Assembly (NCBI GenBank): GCA_002529455.1 | Contig: NYMS01000012.1 | Coordinates: 1-64,000 of the forward strand | Source: Glycomyces fuscus | GTDB taxonomy: Bacteria; Actinomycetota; Actinomycetes; Streptosporangiales; Streptosporangiaceae | DNA length: 64,000 bases | Direction: 5' to 3' | Shown: positions 34,717-39,068 of the stretch, one piece after another | How the letters are laid out: every line of letters starts with the position of its first letter | Numbering within the stretch: position 1 is the stretch's first letter | Program-made: the position numbers and the translations under genes | The notes under the pieces: model-generated | What the model saw: the letters and a program-made list of their open reading frames with translations, nothing else | Told to the model about the DNA's origin: nothing | Databases searched by the model: none

Positions 34717-35985
34717 ATGTTCGAAGACCCCCTGCTCCTGGCGCGGCTCCAGTTCGCGCTGACCGCCGCCACCCACTACATGTTCGTGGCCCTGACCCTC
34801 GGCCTGGCCCCCTACGTCCTCACCACCCAGCTGGTCGCCACCCTGCGCGGCGACCGCTCCCGGATGACGGCCGTGCGGTTCTGGGGCGGCCTGTACCTGG
34901 TCAACTACGGGATGGGGATCCTGTCCGGCCTGGTGATGGAACTCCAGCTCGCGCTGAACTGGAGCGGTCTGCACGCGATGTTCGGCTACACCTTCGCCGC
35001 GCCCCTGGCGCTGGAGACGATGACGGCGTTCTTCGTCGAGTCCACGTTCCTGGGACTGTGGATCTTCGGCTGGGACCGCATGGGCCGGTGGGCGCACCTG
35101 GCCTGCTTCGCCGTGGTCACCGCGACGGCGTACGCCTCGGCGTGGTGGGTGCTGGTCTCCAACGGGTTCCTGCGCAACCCCGTGGGCTTCGAGGTGGTCG
35201 ACGGGGTGGCACACCTGACCGACCCCGTCGCGCTGATGACCAACCCGGCGGCCGTGACGGCCTTCGGGCACATCGTCACCGGCTCCCTGCTGGTCGGCGC
35301 CCTGGTCGTCGCCGCGACCAGCGCCTACCACATCGTCCGGCGCGACGACGCGCACGGCGTCTTCCGGCGGGGCATCCGCTACGCGACGCTGGTCCTGTGC
35401 GTCGTACCGGTACCCGTGGCGGCCTTCGGCGGTGTGCAGTTCGGGCTGTTCGGCCAGGACCCGCCCACGAGCGGCCTGACCCACACCGCGGAGGAGATCG
35501 CGGCGATCGCGGCGGCGAACCCGGGCGGGCCCCTCCTGGACGCGGCCAACACGGCCGGCGACCTGGTGATGGTGACGGCGTGGTCGCTGATGTTCCTCCT
35601 GGGCCCGGTCCTGCTGCTGGCCTGGCCCCTCGGCGGACTCGACCGCTGGAGGTGGTTCCTCGCGCCGCTCGTGGTGACGCCGTTCCTGCCCTACCTGGCC
35701 AGTGTCGGCGGCTGGGTATTCCGGGAGACCAACCGCCAGCCCTGGACGGTCGTGCACCACCTGACCACCGCCGACGCGGTGACCCCCATGTCCCCGGCCG
35801 CGGCCGCGGCCTCCTTCGGCTTCTTCACCGCCGCCTTCGCGGCCCTGGCCTCCGTCACCTACTGGCTCCTGGTGCGCTACGCGCGGCGCGGCCCCGGGGG
35901 CGGTCCGCTGGCCGAGCAGCGCACGCCGCGCCCCGACGGTCCCGCGGAGCCCCGCGAACCCGCCGCCCCCGTCCACACGTACTGA
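34717..35985 (+). CDS. Cytochrome bd-type oxidase subunit I, short divergent form
   Basis: A 422-residue CydA-family protein, about 80-100 residues shorter than classical CydA because the quinol (Q) loop is reduced. Retained: H20 in the first helix (LQFALTAATHYMFV), the two glutamates in LETMTAFFVESTFLGLWIFGW, the histidine in AFGHIVTGS, and RQPW, although the usual GRQPW reads TNRQPW. These suggest that heme ligands and proton path are largely kept. It should be a membrane terminal oxidase or a related quinol-dependent reductase. The ATG has no strong ribosome binding site. Followed 18 bp later by the cydB-like gene. Confidence 0.85.
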   Translation: MFEDPLLLARLQFALTAATHYMFVALTLGLAPYVLTTQLVATLRGDRSRMTAVRFWGGLYLVNYGMGILSGLVMELQLALNWSGLHAMFGYTFAAPLALETMTAFFVESTFLGLWIFGWDRMGRWAHLACFAVVTATAYASAWWVLVSNGFLRNPVGFEVVDGVAHLTDPVALMTNPAAVTAFGHIVTGSLLVGALVVAATSAYHIVRRDDAHGVFRRGIRYATLVLCVVPVPVAAFGGVQFGLFGQDPPTSGLTHTAEEIAAIAAANPGGPLLDAANTAGDLVMVTAWSLMFLLGPVLLLAWPLGGLDRWRWFLAPLVVTPFLPYLASVGGWVFRETNRQPWTVVHHLTTADAVTPMSPAAAAASFGFFTAAFAALASVTYWLLVRYARRGPGGGPLAEQRTPRPDGPAEPREPAAPVHTY

Positions 35986-36003: not shown

Positions 36004-36924
36004 ATGGACCTCCTCTCCTCCGCACTCCTCGCCCTGCTCGTCGTGGGCTACCTCGTCCTGGCGGGCTCCGACATCGGCCTGGGCATGCTGATGCCGCACC
36101 TGGCGCGCGGGCCCGAACAGCGCCGCCGCGTGGTCGCCGCCGTCGCCCCCTACTTCCTGGCCTCGGAGGTGTGGCTGGTCGCGGCGGTCGGGGTCCTGGC
36201 GGGCCTGTTCCCCGCCTTGGAGCACCACGCGGTCGCCGAACTGCGGCCCGTGCCCGCCGTCCTGCTGGCCGGGTGGCTGGCCCGGGACGCGGGGCTGTGG
36301 CTGCGCGCCCGCGTGGACGGCGACCGCTGGCGGCTGGCCTGCGACTGCGCACTCGTCGCGGGCAGCTGGACCCTGGCCGCCGCGTGGGGCCTGGTGGTGG
36401 CGGGCCTGCTCGCGGGCGGGCTCGCCGCGAGCGCGTTCACGCCTGTCTGCGCGGTCGCCGTCACGGCCCTGTTCGCGCTGCGCGGCGCCGCCTTCGGGGC
36501 CGAGCGGCTGGTCGGCCCGGCGGAGTCCGAGAGCGCGGACGTCGCCGCCCGGGACACGCGCCTGCTGGCGCGCGTCGCCCTGGGGGCGGTGGCGCTGGCG
36601 GCCGTGTCGGCGGCGCTGCCCGGCGGTCCGGACCTGTCCCCCGGGCCCGCGGCCGTCCTGACCGCGGTGCTGCTGGCGGCCCTGGCGGCGACGAGCGGCC
36701 TGGCGGGTCCGATGCTGTCGCGGCACACGTCGGCGGTGGCGATCGCGGTCCCCGGCGCCCTGGTCGCGCTGGCGGCGCAGCTGCCCTCGGCGCCCATCCC
36801 CTCCACGACCGCGGTGTTCGTGTGGACGACGCTGGTCCCCGTCATTCCGGTCATGCTCGTCGGCCAGGTTTGGCTCTACCGAATGACACGCCGTCCGGCG
36901 GTCGCGCCGACCTTCTTCGCCTGA
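36004..36924 (+). CDS. Cytochrome bd-type oxidase subunit II-like membrane protein
   Basis: A 306-residue protein with eight to nine hydrophobic segments. The N terminus LLVVGYLVLAGSDIGLGMLMPHL matches the first helix of CydB (Y-x-x-L-x-G-x-D-x-G-x-G). The rest is diverged and Ala/Leu-rich, and it is shorter than usual CydB (330-380). Placement 18 bp behind the subunit I gene supports the assignment. Together they form an alternative, possibly oxygen-scavenging or stress-related oxidase; the main cyd operon may lie elsewhere. Confidence 0.8.
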   Translation: MDLLSSALLALLVVGYLVLAGSDIGLGMLMPHLARGPEQRRRVVAAVAPYFLASEVWLVAAVGVLAGLFPALEHHAVAELRPVPAVLLAGWLARDAGLWLRARVDGDRWRLACDCALVAGSWTLAAAWGLVVAGLLAGGLAASAFTPVCAVAVTALFALRGAAFGAERLVGPAESESADVAARDTRLLARVALGAVALAAVSAALPGGPDLSPGPAAVLTAVLLAALAATSGLAGPMLSRHTSAVAIAVPGALVALAAQLPSAPIPSTTAVFVWTTLVPVIPVMLVGQVWLYRMTRRPAVAPTFFA

Positions 36925-37141
36925 TTCCGGCCGGGAACTCCGCGCAGGTCAGCACGGAGCCGGCGCTCGGCGAAGGCCGCCGAGCGCACCGGGCGCCGGC
37001 GGCTCCGGAAGCCCTCCCCCGGTTGGGGGTCCCGGCGAACGGGCACGGTCCCCTGCGGGAAACGCGCCCGTGACGCCCCCTCCCACCGGGGGAGGCCCGG
37101 CGTGATCGCGCACGGGCGCTGACGAACCCCCTGGAGGGCCT

Positions 37142-37255
37142 GTGACTCACCAGATGACCACAACCCCCGACCTGCGCGGATGCAGCTGCGGTTCGGGCTG
37201 CGGCTGCGGCTGCCAGAGCGGCGGCTCCTGCAGCTGCGGCGGAAGCTGCGGCTAG
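37142..37255 (+). CDS. Cysteine-rich 37-residue peptide, metallothionein-like
   Basis: A small gene below usual length cut-offs. The GTG start is preceded by GGAGG four bases upstream. The product starts MTHQMTTTPDLRG and then has eight cysteines (14, 16, 20, 22, 24, 30, 32, 36) in the last 24 residues, all other residues there being Gly, Ser and one Gln. The CxC and CxxxC spacings are like metallothioneins, so Zn or Cu(I) binding is the simplest idea; a modified-peptide precursor is the alternative. It lies 217 bp downstream of the cydB-like gene on the same strand. No family was recognised. Confidence 0.7.
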   Translation: MTHQMTTTPDLRGCSCGSGCGCGCQSGGSCSCGGSCG

Positions 37256-37432
37256 CGGGTCCCCGAGTACGGAGGAAGACCCCGTCTCCCCCTTTTCGCG
37301 GGCCGCTCCTCCCCGGGCGGCCCGCCCCCTTCTTCCCCGCCCCGCCCCCGCGTGTCACGACAAAGGGCGACGCCGGGTATACGCTGTGTTACCACGTGAG
37401 GCTGCGTATCCACGCGGTGGGGGAGATCAGCG

Positions 37433-37780
37433 ATGTCGCCGTTCACCAGACCAGCGTCGGGGAGGGGCCACCTCTCCGAGCACGCGAGACTGCTCCAGTG
37501 CGTTCTGGGGATCAGGGAGCGCTCGGCGCGCGCGGTCCCCTGGGAACCGGACACGGTCGGCATCCCGCCCTCGGGCCCGTCCAACGCCCTGGCCCGGATC
37601 AACGACGTCGCCTTCTACGCGAACGCGCGCGACGAGGTGTCCGCCCTGGCCGGGATCTGCGTGGATCTGCTGCACCTGCACGCCCCCGAGGAGGAGGGCG
37701 GGGGCGGTGGCCGCTGCCGGGGGTGCCGCCTGGCCTGGCCGTGCCCCACCTTCACCGAGCTCTGCCGCCTTCTCGCCTAG
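37433..37780 (+). CDS. Small actinobacterial protein with C-terminal CxxC/WPCPT motif
   Basis: A 115-residue protein. The ATG follows GGGGGAGA. The C-terminal CRGCRLAWPCPTFTELC carries four cysteines in the CxxC...WPCPT arrangement found at the end of many small actinobacterial proteins, probably a zinc or redox site. The N-terminal part (HARLLQCVLGIRERSARAVPWEP) is helical and has no known domain. It lies 177 bp after the cysteine-rich peptide, same strand, and could share its control. Function unknown. Confidence 0.7.
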   Translation: MSPFTRPASGRGHLSEHARLLQCVLGIRERSARAVPWEPDTVGIPPSGPSNALARINDVAFYANARDEVSALAGICVDLLHLHAPEEEGGGGGRCRGCRLAWPCPTFTELCRLLA

Positions 37781-38673: not shown

Positions 38674-38991
38674 TCAGCTTATTCGCGTGGCCAGCAGATA
38701 TGCGGAGGGGGCGTCCGCGTCCACAATGTCGGTCACCCTCCAGGCCTGTCCTCCGACACTGAACACGTCGCCCACCCGGACGTCGATCATGGGCGTGGGC
38801 CGCCACTCCCTCGGTCCTCCGATCTTGGCGACCGGGTGGCCGTCCTCATCCACCCAGAAACTGCCCCCGCCCACCGGTCCGCCCGCGAATCGGTCGTTCC
38901 GTCCATAGCTGATCTTCTCCTGCGCACCGACCTCGTGGACCACAGTGAATTTCGTCCCAACCTTCTCGGGTTCCGTTGAAAACGCAGCCAT
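38674..38991 (-). CDS. Small hypothetical protein (DUF6406-like)
   Basis: A 105-residue soluble protein. Features such as GSFWVDEDGHPVAKIGG, VRVGDVFSVGGQAWRVTDI recall the small beta-rich actinobacterial DUF6406 family, an assignment made from memory. The ATG at 38991 lacks a clear ribosome binding site; an in-frame start 24 codons upstream is less plausible. It has its own terminator, and the surrounding DNA is less GC-rich than average, suggesting an accessory gene. Function unknown. Confidence 0.65.
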   Translation of the reverse strand: MAAFSTEPEKVGTKFTVVHEVGAQEKISYGRNDRFAGGPVGGGSFWVDEDGHPVAKIGGPREWRPTPMIDVRVGDVFSVGGQAWRVTDIVDADAPSAYLLATRIS

Positions 38992-39068
38992 GTTAACCCG
39001 CTCAGGGCAATTGGGGATGCCGTTTTCGGGCCTGTGGGGCGTTTCGAGCAGAGTAGCTGACAAAGGTA

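Follow-up and report, generated by a model that had tools for sequence, protein, structure and literature searches.

Our analysis of a 64,000-nucleotide stretch of DNA (the window) suggests, with a probability that we put at roughly 0.8, that a short reading frame downstream of cydAB genuinely encodes a metallothionein-like peptide of the MtpA kind, small and probably cytosolic. The frame is a real protein-coding gene under purifying selection. The metallothionein-like reading fits best because the cysteines and the start signals are conserved and because the peptide is homologous to peptides encoded next to phoU in Streptomyces. The first-pass annotation had already spoken of a real metallothionein-like peptide, and this is supported by the conservation of cysteines and start signals and by the homologues in the place of mtpA, with metal binding itself predicted from the sequence. 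The features of the locus are collected in Table 1.

Table 1. Features of the peptide locus, in window coordinates
Feature	Position	Strand	Remarks
cydA, cytochrome bd oxidase subunit I, upstream neighbour	34717..35985	+	PF01654 E=1.7e-90
cydB, cytochrome bd oxidase subunit II, immediate upstream neighbour	36004..36924	+	PF02322 E=2.7e-31
Promoter- or operator-like element GRTTGG-N13-CGGGMA-N10-CGGgaA	37021..37061	+	Conserved upstream of the peptide gene
Leader hairpin, 14-pair stem, conserved 7-nt 3' bulge GATCGCG	37062..37120	+	Between promoter-like element and SD; covariation
Ribosome binding site GGAGGG	37133..37138	+	AGGAGG(G) in most relatives; 3 nt before GTG
MtpA-type metallothionein-like peptide CDS, 37 residues, eight Cys	37142..37255	+	GTG start, TAG stop; start and SD conserved, eight invariant Cys, purifying selection
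GC hairpin, probable terminator, no T run	37298..37325	+	Fold z -2.88
115-residue protein of unknown function, downstream neighbour	37433..37780	+	Conserved; own conserved upstream block

Translation of the frame gives VTHQMTTTPDLRGCSCGSGCGCGCQSGGSCSCGGSCG, which bears out the 37-residue, eight-cysteine product read from the sequence at first pass. Cysteine accounts for eight of the 37 residues and forms four CxC steps, Phe, Trp and Tyr are absent, and there is no His in the core. The tail with CxC spacings that was said to contain only Cys, Gly, Ser and Gln does so from residue 13 to the end. Small size, richness in cysteine, CxC motifs and the lack of aromatic residues are features of the metallothionein class. 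Eight thiolates in CxC and CxxxC steps, spaced by Gly and Ser, would lend themselves to the flexible metal-thiolate cluster known from that class. The first dozen residues differ among relatives and, judged by eye, hold no hydrophobic stretch, so that the peptide is probably cytosolic. The strong ribosome binding site and GTG start were also read correctly, since both the SD and the start codon (GTG or ATG) are conserved in relatives; L010 and L022, for example, have ATG in place of GTG. An in-frame ATG four codons 3' of the GTG is present, among 30 loci, in L001-L003 only, and in the others a good SD precedes the GTG/ATG position (in L027 two codons further down). We therefore prefer the GTG as start codon.

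Richness in cysteine alone is weak evidence for a gene. Five frames of the window, the peptide's own included, have at least eight Cys in their last 45 residues; with four other equally Cys-rich frame ends in 64 kb, the count does not decide the matter and conservation does. We aligned 58 cores of 23 residues, taken from the 30 loci of the single-peptide search and from 28 of 31 longer fetched regions; L100 (Streptomyces-type), L103 (cut by N) and L107 were left out. In L107 the core is intact, the start has been lost upstream and cydB is broken too. None of the 58 cores departs from the eight cysteines or from Gly10, Gln12 and Gly14 (core numbering), and the Cys codons change between TGC and TGT only. 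The pN/pS ratio over these cores is 0.26, and entropy is 0.76 at the third codon position as against 0.37 and 0.28 at the other two. Invariant Cys, Gly and Gln residues, varying synonymous sites and a conserved SD and start together indicate a genuine gene. The outcome named beforehand as fatal to it, cysteines that are not conserved in related strains, did not occur.

The gene is widespread in its own genus and family. A search of 60 genomes with the single peptide gave a match at E <= 10 in 50; within the genus 33 of 37 genomes, the window's own included, matched at E < 1e-6, and outside it matches were weak except in G057 (E=3.9e-5). A profile search of 249 genomes of the order, with a limit of E <= 0.01, matched 63, each of them once. 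The genus itself accounts for 32 (own included) and other genera of the family for 31, the last eight of which are weak matches (E 2e-4 to 8e-3). These 32 stand against 36 same-genus genomes listed; the genomes without a match include the four remaining listed ones and 166 further, unlisted genomes. All four missing assemblies are fragmented, in 270 to 970 contigs. In G036 the gene is interrupted by a run of N behind cydB, in G026 only residues 1-116 of this cydB are present, and in G034 and G016 only a distant cydB is seen. A wider profile run over 394 genomes of the class matched 60 at E <= 0.001, in 11 of 137 genera. Of these, 21 belong to the window's family and two are borderline singles elsewhere (G298, E=7.9e-4; G569, E=8.0e-4); the other 37 are in genus g20 (Streptomyces), a number that counts matching genomes and is no fraction of the genus, most matchless genomes being unlisted. 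Among 198 genomes spread over the phylum nine matched, namely the window's own, seven of g20 and one borderline. By name, loci adjoining cydAB are found in Nocardiopsis, Streptomonospora alba and Thermobifida fusca, with Nocardiopsis sinuspersici among the carriers of the gene, and there are also relatives in Streptomyces and Kitasatospora. Neither Pfam-A nor NCBIfam has a model that matches the window peptide, the PDB gave no match to the peptide and one meaningless match to the wider profile, and BLAST with the low-complexity filter on found no match to it in plasmid and phage collections.

A single profile recovers both the Nocardiopsis-group and the Streptomyces-type members. In 24 hand-chosen rows C14, C16, C20, C22, G23, C24, Q25, G27, C30 and C32 are invariant. 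Many Streptomyces members stop after the seventh Cys and so miss the last one, and in L076 and L180 inner Cys are lost or moved. For the neighbourhood in Streptomyces we examined 37 regions, drawn from 36 genomes of g20 (every matching one but G057, with L100); phoU lies just upstream on the same strand in 36 of these regions, the exception being L180, a second copy in G579. Of these 36, 35 also have phoR and phoP beyond, and L147 has phoU only. Among 22 named loci (L055-L076), which are partly the same DNA as the unnamed ones (for example L057 = L079 and L068 = L151) and are not independent counts, three follow cydAB (L057, L059, L064) and nine follow phoU. L069, L070 and L076 adjoin ABC-3 (Znu-type) permeases and a FUR-family regulator, with a CobW protein adjacent as well in L069 and L076; we count this setting among metal-handling genes in favour of a metallothionein. 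A contig end truncates L056, and the remaining six have other neighbours, one of them phage-like: this copy (L075:121-222) lies near a contig end, beside matches to phage tail terminator and minor capsid families. No Zur box was found near Streptomyces-type peptide genes, the Znu-linked loci included, with simple patterns (8 loci) or in a palindrome scan (7 upstream regions). By eye, L069, L070, L072, L073, L075 and L076 share a block, CGGGTGTTCGCT, about 40 nt before the start, which is unlike the Nocardiopsis element. The records L070, L072 and L076 are labelled Streptosporangium nondiastaticum, and their layout is close to that of Streptomyces mashuensis and S. roseoverticillatus; the genus label may be doubtful.

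The Streptomyces gene in this place is known as mtpA; phoU and mtpA are the subject of a 2006 paper by Ghorbel et al. It carries the locus tag SCO4227 and is entered as 'Metallothionein protein (mtpA)' in a table row of PMC2267785, and its place after phoU is named in PMC7866108. In PMC4991794 SCO4226 and SCO4227 are down-regulated with phoU-phoR-phoP under oxidative stress and are labelled nickel-binding and hypothetical, respectively. The passages of PMC7866108 and PMC2267785 that concern MtpA make it a metallothionein by name, without biochemistry, and PMC7767326 mentions metallothioneins in general terms only. We equate the phoU-adjacent Streptomyces peptides with mtpA by place and kind, and not by the SCO4227 sequence itself, so that the identity is a probable one.

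At the window locus the place of phoU is taken by cydAB, 5' of which lie a HisKA_3 kinase and a LuxR-type response regulator. The arrangement is common in the Nocardiopsis group: cydB was detected in 25 of 30 loci, with a reach of 1.5 kb upstream or less, and cydA or cydB in 26 of the 31 longer regions. The other five regions are the Streptomyces-type L100 and four loci of the family (L088, L093, L097, L099) in which the peptide gene is present and a reach of about 4 kb showed no cydAB. This indicates that the peptide gene is independent of cydAB. In L105 cydB and the peptide gene lie about 2.5 kb apart, and the stretch between them matches a WYL regulator and an epoxide hydrolase; in L110 cydAB and the 115-residue neighbour are there and no peptide gene was found. 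This neighbour starts 177 nt past the peptide gene, has no family match, and was found in 23 of the 31 fetched regions and not detected in eight, L100 among them. It has a Cys-rich end, CRGCRLAWPC, and the block before its gene, CGCGACA...TAC.CT, is conserved over 30 loci. A DUF6406 protein (PF19944) is encoded at 38674-39063 on the minus strand and is near the peptide locus in many relatives too. In the literature collection searched, no paper was found that joins cytochrome bd to this peptide family; the lone match to metallothionein, cytochrome bd and actinobacteria was PMC7924339, which by its title deals with SigC and copper in Mycobacterium tuberculosis.

The peptide gene looks like its own transcription unit, made up of a promoter-like element, a structured leader, the SD, the ORF and a hairpin. 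The element GRTTGG-N13-CGGGMA is present in its strict form in 43 of 58 upstream regions and in a looser form in 49; the strict form occurs once in the window on either strand, and of the 32 Nocardiopsis loci that have the element, 29 show another CGG exactly 10 nt beyond it. It was not found before cydA, so that co-regulation of the peptide gene with cydAB is unproven. The sigma-B consensus contains GGGTAY. We considered a sigma-B-like reading of the element and rejected it, since GGGMAN stands here in that position, and we leave the element unnamed. A sigma-70-type promoter scan of 36900-37500 found nothing. Downstream, the GC hairpin can be made out by eye at most of the 30 loci (uncounted), and a scan for T-run terminators found none.

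The leader structure, which has no Rfam family (no match up to E=1 on 36800-37600), is the most unusual feature of the locus. In 20 sequences (19 distinct), picked from 35 Nocardiopsis loci for having the hairpin, 98.1% of cells pair and 8 of the 14 pairs are changed on both sides. The covariation score was reached by 0 of 500 shuffles, pairing drops strongly when the stem is slid along the alignment, and some pairs are G-U; the count of further pair types stands out less, being reached by 42 of 500 shuffles. An earlier count, on 10 sequences, took in the upper stem: 9 of 20 pairs were changed on both sides, and the upper stem paired in only 68% of cells. Folded as a single sequence, the window leader is weakly better than its shuffles, 14 of 200 of which do as well (z -1.58). 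When the hairpin was modelled and searched for in 41 genomes, 20 matched at E <= 0.1. Of 25 same-genus genomes, the window's among them, 18 have their best match beside the peptide gene (E <= 2.2e-4); 14 of these supplied the model and four (G005, G007, G012, G013) are independent. Thirteen of the 18 have no other match at E <= 0.1, and G001, G006, G007, G010 and G014 have weaker additional matches away from the gene, at most two per genome (E 3.6e-4 to 0.08). In G023 the match beside the gene is weak (E=0.066), and a genome from another family, G050, gave a match at E=0.008. By eye the hairpin is absent in L013 and L014, and a different one is found in L022, L023, L025 and L028. In several single-sequence folds UCGG pairs with CCGA by the SD and so closes the leader, and the SD pairs with an upstream CCUCC; these pairings differ between sequences and we make no claim for them. 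An own promoter and a regulatory role of the leader RNA may be supposed from the organization of the locus.

If the peptide binds metal, as its composition suggests, the eight cysteines of CxCGxxCxCGCQxGxxCxCGxxC would enclose soft metal ions, Cu(I) or Zn(II), in a thiolate cluster, and the peptide would thereby buffer excess or released metal. We lean to Cu(I) because of the bd neighbour and the CxC-rich array; the Znu, FUR and CobW neighbours of three relatives hint at zinc. A link to bd respiration may be supposed, in which the peptide would bind metal, copper as the first guess, when the cell turns to the copper-free bd oxidase under low oxygen or redox or nitrosative stress. In Streptomyces the phosphate link could reflect metal freed during polyphosphate use. 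A fuller version, in which a cuprous metallothionein is tied to a switch of terminal oxidase and takes up the released copper, with the leader RNA sensing metal or redox state and gating translation by the SD, seems to us unlikely as a whole; if true, it would mean that copper freed on the change from copper-containing oxidases to cytochrome bd is captured by the peptide.

Other roles for the peptide are less easily reconciled with these data. It might carry zinc or another metal to a partner instead of buffering it, as the Znu-type permeases, FUR-family regulator and CobW protein beside some relatives would allow; since this setting is seen in just 3 of 22 named loci and no partner is constant across loci, we think such a carrier very unlikely. 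The first-pass annotation also offered a modified peptide, that is, a precursor of the thiazole or lanthionine type made on the ribosome, with the Cys/Gly/Ser tail as core and the N-terminal part as leader. The Gly/Ser/Cys tail behind a short head containing Thr and Pro has the look of one, but the immediate neighbours (cydAB and the 115-residue protein) include no modification gene and the YcaO matches of the genome are on contigs C22, C43 and C49, with none on the peptide's contig, C4. The tail moreover hardly changes across many genera, and the profile search of the order matched each genome once, unlike the varying core of a natural product; we disfavour this proposal as highly improbable.

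The many Cys codons and the conserved gene 177 nt downstream would also suit a Cys-sensing leader peptide, on which stalled ribosomes control the next gene. Against such a role, Gly10, Gln12 and Gly14 are as invariant as the cysteines; a strong hairpin and a separate conserved block precede the next gene, which is itself undetected in 8 of 31 fetched regions, and this leaves the idea scarcely a chance. Least probable of all is a small accessory subunit of cytochrome bd like CydX. CydX is of similar length, and in most loci of the group the peptide gene comes directly after cydB, but the peptide has no hydrophobic segment (by eye), its gene is kept in four loci with no cydAB detected nearby, so that the link is not strict, and the relatives in Streptomyces-type genomes follow phoU. 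We therefore retain the metallothionein-like reading.

From a one-off observation a family of small proteins has thus been defined that has no Pfam or NCBIfam model of its own. It spans the Nocardiopsis group and Streptomyces-type genomes in three neighbourhoods, those of bd oxidase, phosphate control and zinc-type uptake, and it makes the metallothionein function of MtpA testable by comparison. A candidate cis-acting leader RNA is added.

Several known systems invite comparison. MymT, the mycobacterial Cu(I) metallothionein, is a small, Cys-rich actinobacterial buffer of soft metal, and the window peptide is likewise small, Cys-rich and actinobacterial; its sequence and Cys spacing probably differ from those of MymT. 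Metallothioneins of the SmtA/BmtA type are cytosolic Cys-rich metal buffers, whose Pfam family is Metallothio_Pro; the window peptide differs in having no Pfam match to such a family and no His in its core. The sole echo of a metallothionein in Pfam is that of Metallothio_5 (PF02067), seen in 2 of 24 members (best E=0.0056) and not in the window peptide itself, and it most likely comes from common Cys spacing and not from descent. The closest likeness is to MtpA (SCO4227), compared here through its relatives: the Streptomyces-type peptides have the same array, CxCGxxCxCGCQxGxxCxCG, as the window peptide. The window gene is a member of the MtpA kind by sequence and not mtpA by position, as it adjoins cydAB instead of phoU, which is another neighbourhood. 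GTTCA is the start of the PHO-box repeat, and no such unit was seen by eye between cydB and the peptide start. The window gene further differs from its Streptomyces counterparts in having another leader, with a conserved hairpin, and in keeping the eighth Cys that many of them have lost.
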